From positions 1 through 64,000 of the forward strand of contig JAODLY010000044.1 of assembly GCA_025464445.1 (NCBI GenBank): 64,000 bases of DNA, in the 5' to 3' direction. This document shows, piece by piece, positions 23,881 through 36,441 of the stretch (position 1 is its first letter; each line of letters opens with the position of its first letter). The position numbers and the translations under genes are program-made. Under the pieces are notes generated by a model. It was not told the DNA's origin, did no database searches, and worked only from the letters and a program-made list of their open reading frames with translations. This stretch comes from Rhodoglobus sp. (GTDB lineage: Bacteria > Actinomycetota > Actinomycetes > Actinomycetales > Microbacteriaceae).

Positions 23881-24035
23881 TCCTCGGGTATTTCAGCCGG
23901 TCCTGAATTGAGGCTGAACCTGTCTACCCCCTTTGTCAAGCGCGCGCCCCGTTCGGGGGGTGCGCAGTTGTGGCCACGTATCATTGCAGCACGAGCGGAA
24001 ATCGCGGCCCCTGCCGTGGCGGAATCGGAGGCACG

Positions 24036-24605
24036 GTGAGCCAGGCGACTGCGGCTCGCGCCCCGCGGCATCCGGAGGTCGACAACAGGATCTTCGCCGC
24101 AGCACTCGCGATCCTGCGCAGTCGCGGACCGCTGGCGGTGAGCGTCGAGTCCGTCGCCGCGGCATCGGGTGTGGCCAAGACGACGATCTATCGTCGCTAC
24201 GAGAATCGCGACTCGCTGCTCACGGCGGCGATCACCTCGGCGACCACGACGATCGACTATCCGTCGGGTCTAAGCGCCCAGGACTCGCTGCGCTGGGTAC
24301 TCAGGCATGCCCGCGACACGATCGAGCACGTCGTCGGCCGGGGCACGGTCGCGGCGGTGATCATGAACGAGGATCCGCAGTTCACGCAGCTGCTGCTTGG
24401 CATGATCCGCGCGACATCCCGGCCGCTGCGCGAAGACCTGCGTGAGCGCGCGGGCGCTGGCGAAATCAAGTCCGATGTCGACGTCGAGCTTGCGATAAGC
24501 ATCCTGCTCGGCGTCGTTGTGGCAGAGCTCATCCGCGGCAGGCCGACTGATGACGACTGGGTCGACTCCGTGCTCGCCCTGCTCTGGCCGGCATTCGCGG
24601 CCTGA
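24036..24605 (+). CDS. TetR/AcrR-family regulator
   Basis: A 189-residue repressor. I chose GTG at 24036 because GGAGG lies five bases upstream. The HTH is in VSVESVAAASGVAKTTIYRRYENRDSLL (about 34-61); the C-terminal part is a helical ligand domain. It is divergent from the ice-binding gene with an imperfect GC-rich inverted repeat (about 23943-23965) between them, so it might control either. It ends 6 nt from the convergent MarR-GNAT gene. Confidence 0.88.
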   Translation: MSQATAARAPRHPEVDNRIFAAALAILRSRGPLAVSVESVAAASGVAKTTIYRRYENRDSLLTAAITSATTTIDYPSGLSAQDSLRWVLRHARDTIEHVVGRGTVAAVIMNEDPQFTQLLLGMIRATSRPLREDLRERAGAGEIKSDVDVELAISILLGVVVAELIRGRPTDDDWVDSVLALLWPAFAA

Positions 24606-24611
24606 GGAGCT

Positions 24612-25481
24612 CTACAGCACCTTCTCGAACCAGTGACCCGCGTAGGGATTGTCGTTGTAGCGCGGGATCTCGGCGTAACCCGCCCGCCGGTACATCGCGA
24701 TGGCGTCGGTGAGAGTCGGGTTGGTGTCCAGTCGCACGACGGTGTTCCCGTCGGCGGCGGCGAGGGACTCCAGTTTGCGGAGCATCCGGCCCGCAAGGCC
24801 CCGCCCACGCCACTCGGGGTCGACCCACATGCGCTTGATCTCGGCAATGCCTGCTGACAGTTGCTGCACCGCCCCGCACGCGACGACGCCGCCGTCCGAC
24901 AGCGCGACGATGAAGCGACCTCGCGGCGGCCGATAGGCGTCAGGATCTTGTGCACCGGGGTCGAAGCCCCCGGGGAACCGCAGGTCGAGTTCGGCGAAGT
25001 AGGCCGACAGCGCCGCCCGTGCGGGCGGTGACGACAGCTCCACCTCGACGAGTTCCGCCGTCGCCGCGCGCATGAGGGCGTCGGCAGTGCGGAGTGCTTC
25101 GGCAAGCCTGACGCGCTGCGAGGGCGGAAGGGGCTCGACGATCCGACGTGCGACATCATCCGAGCGCTGCTCGAGGTCACTCCAGGCCTCCCGCCCGGCC
25201 GCGGTCAACGTGGCGGATCGGCGACGCGCATCCTCACCGTCCGGCGATGTCGTGACGAGCCCCTCGCGCTCGAGGTTGCGGAGCAGCCGGCTGACGTAGC
25301 CCGCGTCGAGCCCGAGTCGCTCCCGCAGCTGGCGTACCCCGATGCCGTCGGGACCGATCTCGAACAGCATCCGTGACGGGCCGAGGGGTCGGCCGGAGCC
25401 GAGGAAGGACTCTTCGAGCACCCCTACGCGCTGCGACCACGCCCGGTTGAAATGGCGGAGCACCGCCATCGCTTCGTCCAT
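24612..25481 (-). CDS. MarR-type HTH fused to GNAT acetyltransferase
   Basis: A 289-residue fusion. Residues 1-140 are a MarR winged helix (IGPDGIGVRQLRERLGLDAGYVSRLLRNLEREGLV) and residues about 145-289 a GNAT domain with the acetyl-CoA P-loop IKRMWVDPEWRGRGLAGRML. Such fusions are known in many bacteria; targets are usually unknown. A perfect 16-bp palindrome directly upstream of the start overlaps the ribosome-binding AAGG, suggesting tight autorepression. Confidence 0.9.
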   Translation of the reverse strand: MDEAMAVLRHFNRAWSQRVGVLEESFLGSGRPLGPSRMLFEIGPDGIGVRQLRERLGLDAGYVSRLLRNLEREGLVTTSPDGEDARRRSATLTAAGREAWSDLEQRSDDVARRIVEPLPPSQRVRLAEALRTADALMRAATAELVEVELSSPPARAALSAYFAELDLRFPGGFDPGAQDPDAYRPPRGRFIVALSDGGVVACGAVQQLSAGIAEIKRMWVDPEWRGRGLAGRMLRKLESLAAADGNTVVRLDTNPTLTDAIAMYRRAGYAEIPRYNDNPYAGHWFEKVL

Positions 25482-25533: not shown

Positions 25534-27294
25534 TCAGGACTTCGCCGCGACCGGCCTTCTCTTCGCGACCGGTGCGGAAGTCGTTGTGCCCACAGTTCCG
25601 GCCGCCGCCCTCGCGAGCGACTCCTTGCGGGGCAGGATCTTGCCGGGATTGAAATTCTCGCCCGGGTCGGCGCTGGTCAGCAGGCCGGTCATGACCTTCA
25701 CGCCCTCCGACGAGATGTCTTCCGCGAGCCAGGGCGAGTGCTCGAGGCCGACGCCGTGGTGGTGCGAGATCGTCGCGTCGTTGTCGACGAACGCCTGCTG
25801 GATCGCGCGCTTGACGGTGTTGTACTCGCCGATGGGGTCTTTGCCGAATACGAACGCGAAGGTGAAGTACAGGCACGCGCCGGAGTGGTACGAGTGCGAC
25901 ATGTGGGACATGATCCATCCCTTGATGCCAATCTCGTCGAAGGCCTTGTTGGCCGCGGCGTAGACGGCCTCGTGCACGCCGACGAGCTTCGACCAGGGAG
26001 CCGCCGTCTCCGAGACATCCCCCGCAGCTCCCATGTCGAGCAGGAAGTCGCGCAGGTACGGGGTGTCGAACTTCTTCTGGTCGTACAGGATGCCCGGGCC
26101 CTTGCCCACGCCCATGCCGCCGTGCTTCTTGACGATGGCGTCGACGAGCGACTTCTGGCGCTTGGCGTGCGAGACGCTGCCCTCGTAGCCGATGAACGAC
26201 AGGCAGATGTCCTCCAGCGTCCAGCCCTTGGACTTCATAAGACCGGGCAGCACGGTTCCGGCGAGGAACTTGTCGAAGCCCTTGCGGTCTTTGCTCGTCG
26301 CGAGCGAGAAGCCCGTCTCCCGCGAATCGGAGATGCGGGTGATCGTGGGGGCTGCATCCGATTCGGCGATTGCCTGCATGGCGGCCATGCCCGCCTTCCA
26401 GTTCGGGAAGAAGTAGGCGTAGACGTCACGCTTGGCCGGAGTGCGGTGCACCTGCACGGTCACCTCAGTGATGACGCCGAGACGGCCCTCGCTGCCCAGG
26501 ATCATCTCGCGCACCGACGGCCCGCTCGACGTCGAAGGCAGCGGGCGAAGCACGAGCACCCCGCCAGGGCGCACCACCCGCAGGCCGCGCGCGATATCGG
26601 CGATGTCGCCGTACTTGTCCGACTGCATGCCGGAAGAGCGGGTGGCGACCCAGCCGCCGACAGTCGAGTGGGTGAAGCTGTCCGGGAAGTGGCCGATGGT
26701 CCAGCCCTTCGCGTTGAGCTGCTCCTCGAGGTCGGGGCCCTGGGCGCCGGCCTGGATGCGGGCGAGACCCGACTCGGTGTCGATGGCGATGACCTTGTGC
26801 AGCCGGCCGAGGTCCAGCGACACGATGGTGCGCTTCTCCTCGGGGATCGGCTCGAGGCTTCCGCCGATGTTCGAGCCGCCGCCGAACGGGATGATGACGG
26901 CGTTCGCCGCGATCGCGGCATCCACGATTCCCTGCACTTCGGCCTCGTCGGCCGGGTAGACGACCACGTCGGGGCTGCGCAGGATCGTGTTGCTGCGCAC
27001 CCGGATCAGGTCGCGGATGCTCTTGCCGTAGGTGTGGATGACGCGATCCATGTCGTCGACGGTGACGTAGCCTTCGCCGACAACGGCCGCGAGCGACTTC
27101 GTGAATGCCGCACTCGCGTTCGACTTCGGCACGTTCAGGTCGGCGAAGGACGGCTCACCGGCACGCTCCGCGGTGAGCAGGTCGAGGCCGACCGCGTACT
27201 GCACGAATGGCGCGAACCCCGGCTTGTCTTCGAAATGGAACCCGACGCCGTCGACTCCCCAGCCCCACCACTTCATATGCTTGACGGCAGTCAT
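25534..27294 (-). CDS. FAD-linked oxidase of the alkyldihydroxyacetonephosphate synthase family
   Basis: A 586-residue VAO-family flavoprotein. PFGGGSN (136-142) is the FAD pyrophosphate loop and HSTVGGWVATRSSG the second FAD block. The C-terminal half has YHSGACLYFTF and the triple-His ISHHHGVG (His511-513), both active-site features of eukaryotic ADPS, which swaps an acyl for a fatty alcohol on DHAP to make an ether bond. A Lys/Ala-rich tail ends the protein. The start overlaps the acyltransferase stop (ATGA). Related actinobacterial proteins lack proven ADPS activity, so the function is inferred from motifs and neighbours. Confidence 0.87.
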   Translation of the reverse strand: MTAVKHMKWWGWGVDGVGFHFEDKPGFAPFVQYAVGLDLLTAERAGEPSFADLNVPKSNASAAFTKSLAAVVGEGYVTVDDMDRVIHTYGKSIRDLIRVRSNTILRSPDVVVYPADEAEVQGIVDAAIAANAVIIPFGGGSNIGGSLEPIPEEKRTIVSLDLGRLHKVIAIDTESGLARIQAGAQGPDLEEQLNAKGWTIGHFPDSFTHSTVGGWVATRSSGMQSDKYGDIADIARGLRVVRPGGVLVLRPLPSTSSGPSVREMILGSEGRLGVITEVTVQVHRTPAKRDVYAYFFPNWKAGMAAMQAIAESDAAPTITRISDSRETGFSLATSKDRKGFDKFLAGTVLPGLMKSKGWTLEDICLSFIGYEGSVSHAKRQKSLVDAIVKKHGGMGVGKGPGILYDQKKFDTPYLRDFLLDMGAAGDVSETAAPWSKLVGVHEAVYAAANKAFDEIGIKGWIMSHMSHSYHSGACLYFTFAFVFGKDPIGEYNTVKRAIQQAFVDNDATISHHHGVGLEHSPWLAEDISSEGVKVMTGLLTSADPGENFNPGKILPRKESLARAAAGTVGTTTSAPVAKRRPVAAKS

Positions 27295-27989
27295 GTCGTT
27301 CCCTTCTGAGCGTGCACCGGCCGCGATGCCGGATCTACTGATGCGTGCAACCGCCTGACCTCATCGGTCAGTCGTCCCGAAAACTCGTCTGCCGTCTCCC
27401 CCGTCGCTGGGCTCATTGGCGAGCCAAAGACTATCGCGACAGGCAGTCTTCCGCGCTTGGGCCAGTTGACCCCGCGCGGCATCGCGAGGTTCGCCCCGAC
27501 GAGCGCGATCGGCAGGCATGGCACCCTGGTGGCGATCGAAAGCGCAGCGGCGCCGGGCTTGAAGCGGCCGATTACGCCGGTCTTCGAGCGACCGCCTTCC
27601 GGAAAGATCAACAGCGGCACTTTGCGCTCGAGCAGTGCGCGCGACGACCCGCTGCGCTTGCCCTCCGAATTGCGCTCGATCGCGAAGGCATTGAAGAACA
27701 ACGTCGTGAGCCATTTACGCCACCGCACGTCGAAGAAGTAGTCGGCGGCGGCTCCTGCGGCGAGAAACCGGGAGAGGCGGCGGGGAAGGCCCCCGATGAT
27801 GAGCGGGGCGTCGAGGTGGCTTGAGTGATTGGCCACGACGATGAACGGGGCGTCGAGCCCGGTGAGCTCATCGGTGCCGTGCACAGTCACCTTGACGAGT
27901 CGCCAGACGAGCGGCCTGAGCAGGCCACGCTGCGCCACGAAGCGCACGCCCGCGATCGTCGGGGACGTAAAGCGATCGACTTTTGTCAT
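27291..27989 (-). CDS. 1-acyl-glycerol-3-phosphate acyltransferase (PlsC) family protein
   Basis: A 232-residue acyltransferase. NHSSHLD (54-60) is the catalytic HX4D motif and FPEGGRS (129-135) the glycerol-phosphate binding motif; LPIALVG follows. It should transfer an acyl chain to lysophosphatidate or a related acceptor at the membrane. ATG at 27989 overlaps the SDR stop and its own stop overlaps the ADPS-like start, so SDR, acyltransferase and ADPS-like gene are translated as one coupled unit. It may acylate an alkyl- or acyl-DHAP-derived backbone. Confidence 0.9.
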   Translation of the reverse strand: MTKVDRFTSPTIAGVRFVAQRGLLRPLVWRLVKVTVHGTDELTGLDAPFIVVANHSSHLDAPLIIGGLPRRLSRFLAAGAAADYFFDVRWRKWLTTLFFNAFAIERNSEGKRSGSSRALLERKVPLLIFPEGGRSKTGVIGRFKPGAAALSIATRVPCLPIALVGANLAMPRGVNWPKRGRLPVAIVFGSPMSPATGETADEFSGRLTDEVRRLHASVDPASRPVHAQKGTT

Positions 27990-28807
27990 GGTTGTCCGTC
28001 GGCTTTCACGTGGTGTTCTGGCGCCTGGGTCGCTGGGGTTGCTTCGCCGCGGCTGGAGGAGATTCCAGCGGAGATCCAGCGGATTGTGCGCATCGGCAGG
28101 TGCCGGGCGAACCAACCGAGCACGCGGTAACGGACAGTGGGGACGGAAATCACCCGGCCGCGGGCGGCATCCCTGAGAGCGATGCGGGCGACGTCGTCGG
28201 GCTCGGTCCACAGCCAGCCCGGGATGGAGCTCCTGCGCACCCCGGCGCGCTCGTGCCATTCGGTGCGCACCCAACCGGGCAGCACCGCAGTGACCTTCAC
28301 TCCGGTCCCGCGCAGTTCGACCGCGAGCCCCTGGCTGTAGGCGGTGACCCAGGCCTTGATCGCGCCGTACGACCCGGTCGCGAGAAAGCTCTGCAGGCTC
28401 GAGATGTTGATGATCGTGCCGCCGCGTTGCCGCATTGCCCGCCCGGCCGCCCCGCCGAGCACGAGGATCGCGCGGCACATCACATCGAAGGCGCGCTCGT
28501 GCAGCGAAGCGTCCACGGCGGTGAGGGCGACCGGCACGGCGAAGCCGGCATTGTTCACGAGCATGTCGATCGGTCGTGCGGCGTCTTCGATCCGGGATGC
28601 CACGCGCGCGACATCCGCCCGGTCCGCGAGATCCGCGCGCAGCACTTCGACATCTATGCCCGACGCGGCATGCAACTCGGCGGCGACGCTCACGAGGCGG
28701 GACTGGTCACGGGCTACGAGCACCAGATCGTATCCGGCAGCGGCGAGTTGCCGGGCGAATGCGGCTCCGATGCCGGATGTGCCGCCCGTGATAAGAGCCG
28801 TTGCCAT
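27986..28807 (-). CDS. Short-chain dehydrogenase/reductase, membrane-associated type
   Basis: A classical SDR of 273 residues: TGGTSGIG (7-14), NNAG (85-88), catalytic Ser136/137, Tyr147 and Lys151. The C-terminal extension (VLGWFARHLPMRTIRWISAG) is amphipathic and could touch the membrane, as in lipid-active SDRs. It leads the coupled operon with PlsC and the ADPS-like gene. In animal peroxisomal ether-lipid synthesis the acyl/alkyl-DHAP reductase is also an SDR, so reduction of a keto-lipid is a reasonable hypothesis. Substrate unproven. Confidence 0.88.
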   Translation of the reverse strand: MATALITGGTSGIGAAFARQLAAAGYDLVLVARDQSRLVSVAAELHAASGIDVEVLRADLADRADVARVASRIEDAARPIDMLVNNAGFAVPVALTAVDASLHERAFDVMCRAILVLGGAAGRAMRQRGGTIINISSLQSFLATGSYGAIKAWVTAYSQGLAVELRGTGVKVTAVLPGWVRTEWHERAGVRRSSIPGWLWTEPDDVARIALRDAARGRVISVPTVRYRVLGWFARHLPMRTIRWISAGISSSRGEATPATQAPEHHVKADGQP

Positions 28808-28820
28808 GCTGGATACATTA

Positions 28821-28839
28821 CGCTACGGGCACCGTAGCG
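28821..28839. promoter_or_regulatory. Palindromic operator candidate in the divergent lipid-operon promoter
   Basis: CGCTACGG-GCA-CCGTAGCG is a perfect 8-bp inverted repeat with a 3-nt centre, 14 nt upstream of the SDR start and 53 nt before the ferritin-like gene. Its form resembles TetR-family sites. One bound regulator could control both operons. Confidence 0.6.
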
Positions 28840-28891
28840 ACGATTGGGTAGACTTTACCCTGACCCACTTCAGATCTCGGAGGTAATGCGG

Positions 28892-29710
28892 ATGCCCGAT
28901 CACAAAGAGGCATCCGCGCGCGGCGAAGCCGACCTCATGCACTTCCCAGCTCCCGGCTTCGACGTGCGCGAATATGCACGCAATGCCGCGGCCAGCCACA
29001 GGGACGACCTGGGCCTGGACACCTACCGCTCGAACCCGCTCGGGGCCGAAGCGCTACGAATCATCCGCTACCTGCAGGTCATCGAGCGCGCCACGATGAC
29101 CCACCTGCGCAGCGTGCTCGTGACCGCGACGCACAAGGATGCGCGCATCACCGCATTCCTCACCACCTGGGCCTTCGAGAAATACTGGATAGCCGACGCG
29201 TTCGAGCAGATCAGCCTCGCCCACCGGCCTGAGGGCACCGACGTCGACCGTGCGCCGTTCATCACCCCGAGCGAGCGGACGATCCGGGAATCGATAGTCG
29301 CGAACATCATCGGCGTGCCGATGATCGCCGTGCACATGACGCTCGGCACGATCGACACCTGGTTGAGCCAGGCCGCATACCGGCGTCTCATCGCGCTCGA
29401 GCCCAACGCGCAGCTGCAGAAGACGATCCAGACATTCCTCGCCCTCAAAGAGCGGCAGCTCGAGTTCTTCGAAGCGCAGTCGCGCTATCGGCTCACCGAG
29501 TCGAAGCAGGCGCGCGCGATCACGCGCAGGCGCCTGAAGAGAATCCCCTGGCCCATCGGTGCGAAAGCCGAACCGCGCGAGGAGACCCACTTCTTCTTCG
29601 AGCGACTGTTCGGCTCCGCACGTGACCTTGTCGCAGAGCTCGACGCCCGCATCGATACCCTGCCCGGACAGTCCGGGCTCTCACTCATCCGAAAGGCCGC
29701 CCACCAGTGA
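28892..29710 (+). CDS. Ferritin-like protein with degenerate diiron site
   Basis: A 272-residue helical protein homologous by eye to the ferritin-like protein encoded at 32087, sharing NPLxxxxLRxxRY and the WxxxxYW and RLxxSK stretches. In that paralogue six diiron ligands are intact; here only the first Glu (Glu65) remains and the others become Lys97, Ile100, Thr156, Lys186 and Gln189. It is probably catalytically dead and may serve as partner or scaffold. The ATG at 28892 has GGAGG eight bases upstream. Its stop overlaps the reductase GTG. Confidence 0.8.
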   Translation: MPDHKEASARGEADLMHFPAPGFDVREYARNAAASHRDDLGLDTYRSNPLGAEALRIIRYLQVIERATMTHLRSVLVTATHKDARITAFLTTWAFEKYWIADAFEQISLAHRPEGTDVDRAPFITPSERTIRESIVANIIGVPMIAVHMTLGTIDTWLSQAAYRRLIALEPNAQLQKTIQTFLALKERQLEFFEAQSRYRLTESKQARAITRRRLKRIPWPIGAKAEPREETHFFFERLFGSARDLVAELDARIDTLPGQSGLSLIRKAAHQ

Positions 29711-32097
29711 CGACCGAAGGCACCACAAAACCCCGCACCACGACCCGCAAGGTCGCTGTGGCAGGGATCCTGACCAACGAACATGTCTTTCTGACCGGCG
29801 GCACCGGGTTCGTGGGACAGGCGATCCTCGAGCGGCTGCTGTCGTCGCATCCCGGCACGCGTGTCACCCTGCTCGTGCGCGGCAAGGGCAGCCAGACCGG
29901 CCAGGCCAGGCTCGAGGGCCTGCTGCGCAAGCCGGTGTTCGCATCCTGGATCGAAAAACTCGGCGAAGACGAAGCCCGTCGCCAGTTCGCAAAACGCGTG
30001 ACTGCCCACGAGGGCAGCCTCGGGAATGTCGGGACGCTTCCGGACGACATCGACGTGGTCATCCACAGCGCGTCGACTGTGTCATTCGACCCGCCCATCG
30101 ATGAGGCGTTCGACACAAACGTGGGAGGAGCCCACGGCGTGTACGGGGCGCTCCTGGCCAGCAAGAGCGACCCGCACGTCGTACACATCTCCACGGCGTA
30201 CGTCGGCGGCATCCGCAAAGGCATCGCGCCCGAAGCATCCCTCACCCATGTCGTCGACTGGCGGGCGGAGTACGAGGCCGCGAAGTCGGCGCGGGCGCGG
30301 GTCGAGCTCGAGTCGCGCGAGCCGGAAGCACTGCGCGCCCAGCTGGACAAAGCGAAAGCCAGGCACGGCAAGACCGGGCCCCAGGCTGTCGCGCAGTTCG
30401 CGGAGACCGCCCGCACCGAGTGGGTGCGCGAGCGCCTCGTCGACCACGGTCGCACGCGCGCGGAGAGCCTCGGCTGGACGGACGTGTACACGCTCACCAA
30501 GGCGTTCGCGGAGCGCGCGGCGGAGGAGCTGTGGGCGCAGGCAGGTCACCGGCTGTCGATAGTGCGGCCCTCAATCATCGAGAGCTCGCTGCACCACCCG
30601 TTCCCCGGCTGGATCGACGGCTTCAAGGTCGCCGATCCGCTCATCATCGCGTATGGCCGCGGCCAACTGCCCGACTTCCCGGGCCTGCCCGACTCGATCC
30701 TCGACGTCATCCCCGTCGACTTCGTCGTCAACGCCGCCCTCGCCGTCGCCGCCCGCGACGCGAAACCGCGCGAGCCGAAATACTTCCAGGTCGTCTCCGG
30801 TGCAAGCAACCCGCTGCCGTTCCACCGCATGTACGAGAACGTCAACGCATACTTCACCAAAAACCCGCTGCCCGACGAAAAGGGCGACATCAAGGTGCCG
30901 CTTTGGCGCTTCCCCGGTGGCCAGAAGGTCGAGAAGGCGCTCGCCAAGCGGGAGCACCAGGCTGTGCGGGCGGAGAAGGTCATCCAGCGCCTGCCCACGA
31001 CAAAACGCACACGGGAATGGCTCGACACGATTTCCAAGGGCAAGCACGGCCTAACCCAGCTACGCGCTTTCACCGAGCTGTACCGCGCTTACGTGCAGAC
31101 CGAGATCATCTTCGATGACACCAACACCCGCGCCCTGCTCGCGTCACTGCCCAGGAGCGTGCAGGAGGTCGAAGGATTCGACGTCACCGAGATCGACTGG
31201 GAAGACTACTGGCAGAACGTCCACTTCCCCGCAGTCACAACACTCACCCGTGCCTTCGGCAAGCGGCCATCCGCCAAGGCCAGGGCGGCCAAGGTGTTGC
31301 CGGTGCGCAGTGACGTGCTCGCGATCTTCGACCTGGAGGGCACAGTGCTCGAGTCGAACCTCGTCAAGCAGTACCTGCAGCTCTGGGCGGCGACAGTCCC
31401 CCGCTCGAAGGTCGCCCACGACCTCGCAAACTTCTCGTTCTCGCTGCGCAAGTACCTGCGGGCAGAGCGCCGCGACCGCGGCGAGTTCATCCGCACGTTC
31501 ATGCGCCGCTACGAAGGTTTCCGGGTCAGCGAGATCGAGCGCCAGGTGCGCGGAGGATTCGGCCGCGCCATGATGCGCCGAGCGCTACCGGACGCCCTGC
31601 GCCGGGTGCAGGAGCACCGGGATGCCGGTCACCGCACGATCCTCGTAACCGGCACGATCGACCTCATGGTGCAGCCCTTCCTGCCGTTCTTCGACGAGGT
31701 GGTCGCCGGCCGCATGCACGAGCGCGACGGAGTGCTCACCGGCTTCCTCGCGGATCCCCCGCTCGTCGACGAGGCACGCGCGGCGTGGCTGCGCCACTAC
31801 GCGGACAAGAACGGCTTCAACCTCGAGCACTCCTACGGCTACGGCGACAGCCACGCCGACCTGGTCTGGCTCCAGCTCGTCGGCAACCCGAGCGCCGTCA
31901 ACCCCGACCTGAACCTGTACCGGCACGCGCGGGAAAAGCACTGGAACGTGCTTGACTGGAAGCGCCGCGGTGCTGCAAGCCGTGCCTCCGGGTCCCCCCG
32001 AGAAGAAAGCTCAACGCCCGAAACACCGAGCATCACGGAAGGAGTCGGACCTGCACCTGTGAAAAGAGTGCGGTCCGCGGCATCCCATGGCATTTGA
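29707..32097 (+). CDS. Fatty acyl reductase-like SDR fused to HAD-IB phosphatase domain
   Basis: A 796-residue fusion. Residues 25-370 are an extended SDR of the male-sterility/thioester-reductase type: TGGTGFVG (30-37), IHSASTVSFD, and YTLTK (Tyr261, Lys265). This class reduces acyl-CoA or acyl-ACP to fatty aldehyde or alcohol. Residues about 535-740 are a HAD-IB domain with IFDLEGT (second Asp of DxDGT replaced by Glu544), VTGT (647-650) and GDSHAD (713-718). A low-complexity tail follows. It is coupled to a ferritin-like gene on each side. Mycobacterial FAR-HAD proteins share this layout; product chain and role here are inferred. Confidence 0.87.
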   Translation: MTTEGTTKPRTTTRKVAVAGILTNEHVFLTGGTGFVGQAILERLLSSHPGTRVTLLVRGKGSQTGQARLEGLLRKPVFASWIEKLGEDEARRQFAKRVTAHEGSLGNVGTLPDDIDVVIHSASTVSFDPPIDEAFDTNVGGAHGVYGALLASKSDPHVVHISTAYVGGIRKGIAPEASLTHVVDWRAEYEAAKSARARVELESREPEALRAQLDKAKARHGKTGPQAVAQFAETARTEWVRERLVDHGRTRAESLGWTDVYTLTKAFAERAAEELWAQAGHRLSIVRPSIIESSLHHPFPGWIDGFKVADPLIIAYGRGQLPDFPGLPDSILDVIPVDFVVNAALAVAARDAKPREPKYFQVVSGASNPLPFHRMYENVNAYFTKNPLPDEKGDIKVPLWRFPGGQKVEKALAKREHQAVRAEKVIQRLPTTKRTREWLDTISKGKHGLTQLRAFTELYRAYVQTEIIFDDTNTRALLASLPRSVQEVEGFDVTEIDWEDYWQNVHFPAVTTLTRAFGKRPSAKARAAKVLPVRSDVLAIFDLEGTVLESNLVKQYLQLWAATVPRSKVAHDLANFSFSLRKYLRAERRDRGEFIRTFMRRYEGFRVSEIERQVRGGFGRAMMRRALPDALRRVQEHRDAGHRTILVTGTIDLMVQPFLPFFDEVVAGRMHERDGVLTGFLADPPLVDEARAAWLRHYADKNGFNLEHSYGYGDSHADLVWLQLVGNPSAVNPDLNLYRHAREKHWNVLDWKRRGAASRASGSPREESSTPETPSITEGVGPAPVKRVRSAASHGI

Positions 32098-32899
32098 TAT
32101 CGACAAGTACACGAGCACATCGAAGAAAGTCGTCTGGGGCGACCTGGACTTCGGGTCGTTCGAGACCAACCCGCTGCCGCAGTCCACGCTGCGCAGCCTG
32201 CGCTACATGGCCGATGTCGAGTACCACACCGTCTGCTACCTGCGCGACCTGCTCGTGACCCCCTCCCACAAGGAGGCGGATGTCAGCGCATTCATGACCA
32301 TGTGGAACCGCGAAGAGTTCTGGCACGGCGAGGCCCTCTCTGCTGTGCTCGCGGCGCACGGCGTCACCCTCGACTTCGACCAGCTCAAAGCCACACGCCT
32401 CAAGCTCGGCTGGAAAGACCGTCTCGACCCGATAAAGCAGTCGCTGCTGGGCAACATCGTGGGCAAAGACTTCATCGCCGTGCACATGATCTGGGGTGCC
32501 GCCAACGAGTGGTCTGCCGTCGCCGCATACAACAGGATGGCCGACCTCGAGCAGCACCCGGTGCTCGCCGAACTGCTCCGGCGCATCGCCAAACAGGAGG
32601 CGCGCCACGTCGCGTTCTACGCCACGCAGGCCCGCGACCGCCTCGCCAAGAGCAAGAAAGCCCAGGTGCTCGCACGTTTCGCGCTCAAGAACGCCTGGGG
32701 GCCGGTCGGCTCGTCCATCATGGAACCCGCTGAGGTCAACCACGTCATGGGCCACATCTTCGCCGGCGAAGAAGGGCTGCGTGAGATCCGCAAACTCGAC
32801 GAGCACATCTCCCGCATGCCCGGCCTCGATGGGCTCACGATCGTCGAGACCTCGATGAAGAAGTACGGCATCACCGCGGGAGCACCGCTCGCCGCCTAG
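32087..32899 (+). CDS. Ferritin-like diiron protein, acyl-ACP-desaturase-like fold
   Basis: A 270-residue helical protein with a complete set of diiron ligands in the order of soluble desaturases: Glu45, Glu77, His80 (EEFWH), Glu141, Glu171 and His174 (EARH). This predicts O2-dependent oxidation, possibly of a fatty acyl, aldehyde or ether-lipid chain. Start ATG lies inside the end of the reductase gene (11-nt overlap). Its degenerate paralogue opens the operon, hinting at a hetero-oligomer. Specific reaction unknown. Confidence 0.85.
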   Translation: MAFDIDKYTSTSKKVVWGDLDFGSFETNPLPQSTLRSLRYMADVEYHTVCYLRDLLVTPSHKEADVSAFMTMWNREEFWHGEALSAVLAAHGVTLDFDQLKATRLKLGWKDRLDPIKQSLLGNIVGKDFIAVHMIWGAANEWSAVAAYNRMADLEQHPVLAELLRRIAKQEARHVAFYATQARDRLAKSKKAQVLARFALKNAWGPVGSSIMEPAEVNHVMGHIFAGEEGLREIRKLDEHISRMPGLDGLTIVETSMKKYGITAGAPLAA

Positions 32900-34625: not shown

Positions 34626-35438
34626 CTACTTCAATAGCGTTGCGGCGTGGTCGGGCACGTACCGGAATTGTTCTTTGGGAGGGCGTTCATAGTCATCCGC
34701 GCTCGGCCGATCGGGGACCTTGAGATCTTCCGGGTCGAGGTGCTCGTAGGGGATCATCGAGAGAAGGTGATTGATGGTGTTGAGCCTGGCGGCGCGCTTG
34801 TCGTCGCTTTCGACTGTCCACCAAGGGGCCTCGTGCGTGTCAGTGCGCTCGAACATCTCGTCTTTCGCTCGGGAGTAGTCCTCCCACTTGCTGATCGACT
34901 GCATATCGGTCTTCGAGAGCTTCCAGCGGCGCAGCGGATCCTTCTTGCGGGACTTGAAGCGTCTCTCCTGCTCCTCGTCCGAGACGGAGTACCAGTACTT
35001 GATCAGGATGATGCCGTCTTCGACCAGTAAACGCTCGAGAACGGGGGTTTGCTTGAGGAAGCTTTCGTATTCCGACGGCGTGCAGTAGCCCATGACCCGC
35101 TCGACGCCGGCCCGGTTGTACCAGGACCGGTCCATGAGCACAATCTCACCCTTGGTGGGAAGCCGCTCGATGTAGCGCTGGTAGTACCACTGTCCGCGTT
35201 GCCGCTCGCTGGGTTGCGGCAGCGCCACTACGCGAGCGGAGCGCGGATTCAGGTACTCCGTCACGCGCTTTATGGCACCGCCCTTGCCCGCGGCATCCCG
35301 GCCCTCGAAGATCACGAGCACCCTGGCGCCCTTCTCCGTGACCCAGCGCTGCATGTTGACAAGCTCCACCTGCAGCTTCTCGAGCTCCTTCTCGTACGCC
35401 TTCCTGGGCACCCTCTTGCTCGTCGCGGCCTTACTCAT
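34626..35438 (-). CDS. ppk2: Polyphosphate kinase 2 family protein
   Basis: A 270-residue PPK2, class I length. GRDAAGKGG (46-54) is the Walker A, DRSWYNRAGVERVMGYC carries the Walker B Asp and the adjoining lid, and KYWYSVSDEEQERRFKSR the basic lid region. It transfers phosphate between polyphosphate and nucleotides. ATG at 35438 overlaps the end of the DAG-kinase-like gene by 8 nt, so the two are translated together. Confidence 0.94.
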   Translation of the reverse strand: MSKAATSKRVPRKAYEKELEKLQVELVNMQRWVTEKGARVLVIFEGRDAAGKGGAIKRVTEYLNPRSARVVALPQPSERQRGQWYYQRYIERLPTKGEIVLMDRSWYNRAGVERVMGYCTPSEYESFLKQTPVLERLLVEDGIILIKYWYSVSDEEQERRFKSRKKDPLRRWKLSKTDMQSISKWEDYSRAKDEMFERTDTHEAPWWTVESDDKRAARLNTINHLLSMIPYEHLDPEDLKVPDRPSADDYERPPKEQFRYVPDHAATLLK

Positions 35439-36441
35439 CGGCCGGCACCTTAAGGCGCAACGCACCGGCCTGAACCTTGGTCGTGAAGGCCACCGCCTCG
35501 CCGAACGGATCGCCGTCCAGTTCGATTTCATCGCCGCGGCTCAAGCGCACCTCGAACTCGGGGAGTTGCGCGAAGTCGACTGCGTCTACGTCGATGCCGT
35601 CGACTTTTCGACCGAGCTTCGTTCGCTTGATGATGCCGTTCTCCCAGAAGACTTTGAAGATCACCTGCAGCCAGCCGCGGAAGGACTCTGGTTTCAGGAT
35701 CACGACGTCGAGTAGCCCGTCGTCGAGGACCGCGTCGGGAAGAAGGAGGATGTTGGCGGGGAGCGAGCCGCAATTGCCCACAATCACCGATTGCGCGCGG
35801 GCGGGCCTCCTCTGCACCTGATCGGAGCGATATCGGATGCGAAGCGAGTTCCTGTCCCTGAGTACGGTCGCGAGGGCCCTCGCATAGGCGAGCCACCCGA
35901 CCTTCTCCTTGAGTTCGGGATCGGTGTTGCTCATGATCTTGGCGTCAAGGCCGACGCCCGCCATGACGAGGAAGGTGTGTGTTTCTGTGCTGCCGTCGGC
36001 CCTGGCAATCTCGATGGACGCGGCGTCGATCGCCCGATCGATGCCGCTGAAGGCCGCGCTCATCGAGCGCTCCAGGTCGTCGACAGCGAGATTCAGGTTG
36101 CGAGCCAGGAGGTTACCGGTTCCCGAAGGTACCAGGCACAGCGCTACGTCGGTGTCCACCAGGACTTCGGCGACGGCCCTGACCGTGCCATCCCCGCCCG
36201 CGACGATCACAACGCTGGCGCCGGCCTCCATGGCTTCGGTCGCCTGTCCGCCTCCTGGGTCGTCGCTCGTGGTCTCGAGCCACAAGGCCGTCCAACCCCT
36301 CGCATGCTCACTGGTCTCGACCACCCGCTTGATGTCGGAGACATCCACCTTTGTCGGGTTGTACACGACCGCGACGAGGTTTGCGGCGGCCGTAGCATCC
36401 GAAAGACTCGCGCCTGTTGGCTCGATCTGGGCAGGCGACAT
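35431..36441 (-). CDS. Diacylglycerol/lipid kinase family protein (DagK-like)
   Basis: A 336-residue lipid kinase. GGDGTVRAVAE (82-92) is the nucleotide motif, PSGTGNLLARNL (105-116) follows, and LPDAVLDDGLLDVVI is the usual C-terminal active-site segment. It phosphorylates diacylglycerol or a related lipid. Coupled with PPK2 downstream. The N-terminal 20 residues are poorly ordered, and a shorter start is possible. Confidence 0.9.
   Translation of the reverse strand: MSPAQIEPTGASLSDATAAANLVAVVYNPTKVDVSDIKRVVETSEHARGWTALWLETTSDDPGGGQATEAMEAGASVVIVAGGDGTVRAVAEVLVDTDVALCLVPSGTGNLLARNLNLAVDDLERSMSAAFSGIDRAIDAASIEIARADGSTETHTFLVMAGVGLDAKIMSNTDPELKEKVGWLAYARALATVLRDRNSLRIRYRSDQVQRRPARAQSVIVGNCGSLPANILLLPDAVLDDGLLDVVILKPESFRGWLQVIFKVFWENGIIKRTKLGRKVDGIDVDAVDFAQLPEFEVRLSRGDEIELDGDPFGEAVAFTTKVQAGALRLKVPADE

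Follow-up and report, generated by a model that had tools for sequence, protein, structure and literature searches.

Six adjacent genes in a 64,000-nucleotide stretch of DNA from Rhodoglobus sp., a member of Microbacteriaceae (contig JAODLY010000044.1 of assembly GCA_025464445.1; this whole stretch is termed the window) encode what is probably an aerobic ether-lipid pathway based on dihydroxyacetone phosphate (DHAP), with a plasmalogen-type lipid as its usual end product. These genes form a genuine unit made up of an alkyl-DHAP synthase (ADPS)-like flavoenzyme, a PlsC-type acyltransferase, a short-chain dehydrogenase/reductase (SDR), a fusion of a fatty acyl reductase (FAR) to a HAD domain, and two ferritin-like proteins named FerA and FerB. 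The gene content, the catalytic residues, the predicted fold of FerB and the co-conservation of the genes are direct observations, and dimethylacetals (DMAs) have been published for relatives. The ether-lipid pathway is very probably real, its enzyme activities being predicted, and plasmalogens are rather likely to be the usual product.

The genes are organized into two coupled operons that diverge from each other. The leftward operon, on the reverse strand, has the order SDR–PlsC–ADPS: the SDR (27986..28807, 273 aa; PF00106, E 8e-40) is followed by PlsC (27291..27989, 232 aa; PF01553, E 3e-17) and then by the ADPS-like flavoenzyme (25534..27294, 586 aa; PF01565 and PF02913). PlsC has an ATGA overlap at both ends, with the SDR on one side (PlsC start 27989, SDR stop 27986) and with ADPS on the other; it begins MTKVDRF and is internal to a longer open reading frame (27291..28478). 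The rightward operon, on the forward strand, has the order FerA–[FAR-HAD]–FerB; FerA (28892..29710) overlaps the FAR-HAD fusion (29707..32097, 796 aa) by GTGA, and the fusion overlaps FerB (32087..32899, 270 aa) by 11 nt. The start of FerA is uncertain (28844, 28886 or 28892), and by eye an ATG at 28892 or 28886, preceded by GGAGGT, is more likely than the TTG at 28844. With the start at 28892 the divergent intergenic region (28808..28891) measures 84 bp, and a sigma-70-like promoter was looked for in this gap and not found. The original prediction had described six genes in two divergent operons, with SDR, PlsC and the ADPS-like gene joined by ATGA coupling; all six are present where it had placed them, the Pfam and NCBIfam scans are concordant, and both ATGA overlaps can be read from the sequence.

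Conservation of the unit was surveyed across 249 Microbacteriaceae genomes, in which ADPS of at least 61% identity was defined as cluster-type. Such an ADPS is present in 69 of the 249 genomes, and five more carry a different ADPS of 35–38% identity. The FAR-HAD fusion occurs in 70 genomes, including all 69 with cluster-type ADPS, while FerB occurs in 75 and accompanies ADPS in 67 of the 69 (Fisher tests of co-occurrence with ADPS, uncorrected for kinship: FAR-HAD p 2e-61, FerB p 7e-49). The two ADPS genomes that lack FerB are G149, which is 85% complete and has an intact site, and G161, in which a contig edge intervenes. Gene neighbourhoods of 8–19 kb were mapped in 68 Microbacteriaceae from 28 genera, the window itself being the 69th. 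The ADPS–PlsC–SDR operon is divergent from FAR in 68 of 68 neighbourhoods, and HAD is present in 67 (the exception, L027, is at a contig edge). An adjacent FerA is seen in 64 of the 68, and the mapped stretch includes FerB in 62; the six FerB misses comprise three loci of genus g38, two contig edges (L024 and L027) and one true lack (L036, in genome G149). Absence of FerA and FerB from some genera (g38 loci L076, L078 and L081) was considered and rejected, as a whole-genome search found FerB; in genus g38 the FerA–FerB pair lies approximately 7 kb past FAR-HAD (L249–L251).

The addition of three further Subtercola loci gives a set of 71, throughout which ADPS, SDR and FAR-HAD recur (71 of 71 loci, 28 of 28 genera); the Fer genes recur in 67 of these loci, spanning 26 genera. 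PlsC was counted from the mapped neighbourhoods, since the gene caller had overlooked many PlsC genes. The boundaries of the unit are sharp: among the 24 other called genes of the window (approximately 14.7–45.7 kb) and the other gene families of the loci, none is found in more than 7 of the 28 genera. The conserved co-occurrence that had been proposed as a check is thus borne out, with the core in 68 of 68 neighbourhoods and FerA and FerB in 26 of 28 genera. Beyond Microbacteriaceae, a pattern scan returned at least 118 stretches, and ADPS is present in all 80 loci listed from it; these include Brevibacterium, Georgenia, Brachybacterium, Streptomyces, Frankia, Kineococcus and Solirubrobacterales, and vary in the parts of the cluster found on their pieces of up to 8 kb.

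The flavoenzyme of the window is ADPS-like by the sequence tests run. It contains a VAO-type FAD domain (PF01565, E 4e-34) and an FAD-linked oxidase C-terminal domain (PF02913, E 2e-32), and it matches the ADPS structures 2uuu (E 9.3e-113) and 4bby (E 1.9e-81), which align across 492 and 524 query residues, far ahead of the best non-ADPS flavoenzyme (5e-18). Window residues R320, Y476 and H511–H513 correspond to the catalytic Arg419, Tyr578 and His615–His617 of guinea-pig ADPS. Equivalents of these residues are kept in 143/143, 142/143 and 142/143 actinobacterial homologues, respectively, with gaps accounting for the misses (10 of 153 loci with fewer than 430 aligned residues were left out, and certain genomes are present twice). 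The retention of the HHH and YxxGxCxYF motifs, which the original prediction had pointed out, is confirmed, and the equivalent of Arg419 is kept as well. In a tree of 50 sequences, actinobacterial cluster-type ADPS forms one clade (100/98); the two PDB ADPS sequences fall outside this clade, attached by long branches at an open fork, so that their exact place is unsure in this tree, which contains no Myxococcus sequence. Among named ADPS sequences, the closest belongs to a Rhodoglobus metagenome-assembled genome (85% identity). To our knowledge, no member of this actinobacterial clade has been assayed. The second, distant ADPS class (L088–L092, approximately 35% identity) also keeps the tested catalytic residues, and no match to other cluster genes was found within the mapped stretches of these loci.

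The FAR domain of the fusion (approximately residues 16–511) matches PF07993 (E 2e-46), the FAR structure 7eoz (E 9e-46) and, below threshold, PF03015; Gly31 of its TGGTGFVG motif and YxxxK are kept in 78 of 78 rows. The HAD-IB domain (approximately residues 538–750) matches PF12710 (E 9e-31) and falls slightly below the cut-off of TIGR01490; its motif I reads D-x-E in 69 of the 78 rows and D-x-D in 6. In PlsC the HX4D residues are present in 76 of 77 rows (one gap) and the Glu of FPEG in 75, while the SDR, proposed to be an alkyl-DHAP reductase, keeps YxxxK in 73 of 73.

Published lipid profiles of relatives provide further evidence. DMAs are the signature of vinyl-ether lipids (plasmalogens). 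One study lists i16:0, a15:0 and a17:0 DMAs for Subtercola boreus, S. frigoramans, S. vilae and S. lobariae (PMC5945732); by our own addition of its numeric rows, DMAs sum to 20.7–28.6% of total peak area in these four species. The full set of cluster genes is present in 8 of 8 mapped neighbourhoods of genus g8, which is probably Subtercola. For Kineococcus rubinsiae B12T, gas chromatography–mass spectrometry detected a15:0 DMA at 2.9%, a finding that the authors describe as surprising at first sight and take as indicative of plasmalogens; the MIDI system had called the same peak C14:0 2-OH (PMC7472656). The genome of this strain encodes an ADPS of 59% identity with an SDR 2 kb off, and FAR-HAD followed by PlsC elsewhere. 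Likewise, a15:0 aldehyde/DMA is given for the type strain of Frigoribacterium faeni and for F. adelgis in PMC12823222, and F. faeni AS3.2, a different strain from the type, has the full cluster. Reports of C14:0 2-OH in Frigoribacterium, Frondihabitans, Glaciihabitans and Subtercola may be anteiso-15:0 DMA, as in K. rubinsiae. In titles and abstract openings among the best matches in the open-access literature, no assignment of genes to the DMAs of aerobic actinobacteria was found.

That the cluster could make alkyl-glycerol lipids from fatty alcohol, as originally predicted, is supported by sequence, by genomic context and by the DMAs of relatives, with exceptions in the phenotype match that are weighed below; a step beyond that prediction is that the pathway probably ends in a plasmalogen, a vinyl-ether lipid, and not in an alkyl ether alone. 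We infer every substrate in the following scheme, along with the order of the steps and the roles of HAD, FerA and FerB. The FAR domain would reduce a (branched) fatty acyl thioester to a fatty alcohol, and PlsC would acylate DHAP, or else the sn-2 position at a later stage. ADPS would then replace the acyl moiety with the fatty alcohol, yielding 1-alkyl-DHAP, which the SDR would convert into 1-alkyl-glycerol-3-phosphate. The HAD domain, with its unusual D-x-E motif, may work on a phosphorylated intermediate or regulate flux. FerB would act as an O2-dependent desaturase, most simply one that converts the alkyl ether to a vinyl ether, and FerA would stabilize or guide FerB.

The last of these steps hinges on the nature of the FerA–FerB pair. 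FerB is a di-iron ferritin-like protein with a complete two-ExxH ligand set, and its predicted fold is nearest to that of acyl-ACP desaturases; its PF03405 score of 20.7 bits in the window is below the family cut-off of 22.7. FerA and FerB are homologues (hhalign probability 100, 29% identity); in FerA, W takes the place of the first metal-binding His in all 67 rows, and K or R that of the helix-4 Glu in 65 of 67, such that the two-ExxH di-iron site is lost. Foldseek alone gave no match at E ≤0.001 for either protein. The original prediction had placed the FAR/HAD fusion between two coupled ferritin-like proteins; the order and coupling stand, but full di-iron ligands are confined to FerB. FerA is a degenerate paralogue of FerB, and the pair comprises one apparently active and one degenerate subunit. 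As a tentative leading proposal, FerA and FerB together may be a vinyl-ether desaturase. More tentatively still, the pair could be a soluble, asymmetric di-iron desaturase, with one active and one ligand-degenerate subunit, that forms the vinyl ether of plasmalogens; it would then be a convergent replacement for CarF/TMEM189 that completes a self-contained, one-locus aerobic plasmalogen pathway.

The strongest alternative is that the locus makes saturated (plasmanyl) ethers, with FerA and FerB an ordinary acyl desaturase or hydroxylase, and that the DMAs come from another, unlinked desaturase. This is unlikely, although several observations point in its direction: the fold of FerB is closest to acyl-ACP desaturases, the FerA–FerB pair sits some 7 kb from FAR-HAD in three genomes (L249–L251), 7 of 249 genomes have FerB but neither FAR-HAD nor cluster-type ADPS, six of the seven with FerA called beside it, and K. 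rubinsiae has DMA with no FerB orthologue. Against this, 67 of the 69 ADPS genomes also have FerB, and one of the two exceptions is at a contig edge; the seven FerB-only genomes may have lost the other genes; and an uncontrolled search revealed no CarF-type gene. With regard to other plasmalogen routes, CarF/PEDS1 (PF10520) was not found in sets of 199 and 26 genomes in searches where no positive control matched, and its absence therefore cannot be claimed. PF09989, a domain of PlsA, the enzyme of the anaerobic plasmalogen route, was not found in any of 16 genomes (among them those of the window, K. rubinsiae and F. faeni AS3.2) in a search that matched 4 of 14 controls.

Two further readings concern the chemistry of the core. 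It is very improbable that the ADPS-like enzyme is a dehydrogenase of some other lipid intermediate that forms no ether, with the locus producing fatty alcohols or wax esters. VAO flavoenzymes are functionally varied, FAR is a fatty-alcohol enzyme, and no assayed member of the clade is known; against this, the tested ADPS residues are kept in 142–143 of 143 homologues, whereas another flavoenzyme of the same genome (L002, 28% identical) retains the last His alone, ADPS structures match at E 1e-81 to 1e-113 compared with 5e-18 for dehydrogenases, and DMAs are found in relatives. Least probable of all is a hydrocarbon pathway, in which FerB would be an aldehyde-deformylating oxygenase fed with fatty aldehyde by FAR.

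Several points weigh against the plasmalogen pathway proposed here. The lipid evidence consists of published data on relatives and not on the organism of the window. Every one of the 12 genomes in the genus that appears to be Subtercola carries ADPS, and the correspondence with the four DMA-containing species is at genus level only. The genome taken to be that of S. endophyticus AK-R2A1-2 has the full cluster, and a study that profiled five Subtercola species by MIDI reports 2OH-C14:0 for those four and as undetected in S. endophyticus (PMC9287328). The cluster had been predicted to be absent from this species and that prediction was wrong, a result that counts against a simple match of presence and phenotype. 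This exception is of uncertain weight because the S. endophyticus profile consists to 76.7% of summed feature 8 and the values for the other species differ considerably from earlier data (PMC9287328 versus PMC5945732). Frigoribacterium endophyticum is reported without DMA in PMC12823222, and strain AS3.20 of this species carries the cluster. Herbiconiux also has the cluster, and a search of the text of one Herbiconiux paper turned up no DMA (PMC10011130). Assignment of PlsC as a DHAP acyltransferase is putative, as PlsC-type sequence is not proof of this substrate. As for FerB, the seven genomes in which it occurs without FAR-HAD or cluster-type ADPS (L242–L248, of which G190 bears the distant ADPS class) differ in gene context. 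The sole FerB match in K. rubinsiae is 28% identical over 173 residues (E 8e-4); the protein concerned resembles a ferritin by eye and has no Pfam match. That K. rubinsiae has DMA and lacks a FerB orthologue, and that FerB also occurs outside the cluster, means that FerA and FerB are not the sole vinyl-ether route in actinobacteria, and their substrate may be other or broader.

A number of genes near the unit were also considered. The gene outside the unit that recurs most often in the window is TetR-like, as named by eye, and encodes a possible regulator (23970..24605, forward strand); a similar gene is found in 18 of 71 neighbourhoods and 7 of 28 genera. A MarR–GNAT fusion gene immediately downstream of ADPS (24612–25481) was rejected as an operon member, since a similar gene lies near only 1 of 71 loci. 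A lipid-kinase-like gene (by eye; 35431–36441), 2.5 kb past FerB, was likewise rejected as a unit member (15 of 71 loci, 4 of 28 genera); a similar-looking gene is located directly 3′ of FerB in S. endophyticus (L269, from 19013). In Subtercola, as in the same S. endophyticus locus (L269:15789–17815), FAR-HAD and FerB are separated by a gene resembling LarA (PF09861, E 4.5e-27) and by an additional PlsC-like gene, and genus g55 (L085) has a similar LarA-like gene by eye, along with a weak PlsC match. The LarA-like and second PlsC-like genes of Subtercola may provide an added step in these strong DMA producers.

By analogy, the locus would work like the ether-lipid pathways of animals and myxobacteria, and differ from them in its compact divergent layout, its FAR-HAD fusion and its soluble FerA and FerB. 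The AGPS/ADPS pathway of animals and Dictyostelium (FAR1, GNPAT, AGPS, acyl/alkyl-DHAP reductase and PEDS1) has the same four enzyme types that are found here in one locus, and the ADPS catalytic residues are kept in the actinobacterial enzyme. Unlike the animal pathway, the actinobacterial version is encoded by a single conserved locus and is not peroxisomal; FAR is fused to HAD, the acyltransferase is of PlsC type, soluble FerA and FerB are present, and no membrane desaturase of CarF/TMEM189 type was detected (in the uncontrolled search). Myxococcus xanthus likewise has genes for FAR, acyltransferase, AGPS, HAD and an NAD-dependent reductase, in elb and in the MXAN_1676–1674 operon with CarF (PMC9131029, a review). 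In that organism multi-domain ElbD (FAR/ACS/ACP/AT) carries the main flux, AGPS (MXAN_1676) is minor and the desaturase is CarF. The anaerobic PlsA/PlsR pathway of clostridia leads to the same class of end product, but by a reductive route that starts from diacyl lipids (PMC9702350). FerB shares its fold and ExxH di-iron ligands with soluble acyl-ACP desaturases (PF03405; castor desaturase and mycobacterial DesA2), but is under the Pfam cut-off and comes with FerA, a paralogue poor in ligands that is encoded in the same locus or close by.

The locus provides a concrete and testable genetic basis for the DMAs of aerobic actinobacteria, Subtercola and Kineococcus among them, and ether lipids are predicted in the cluster-bearing members of 28 Microbacteriaceae genera. 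Some taxonomic entries of 'C14:0 2-OH' may derive from plasmalogens. The enzyme that forms the vinyl ether was long sought in animals; if FerA and FerB carry out this reaction, they would represent a second, unrelated solution to it.

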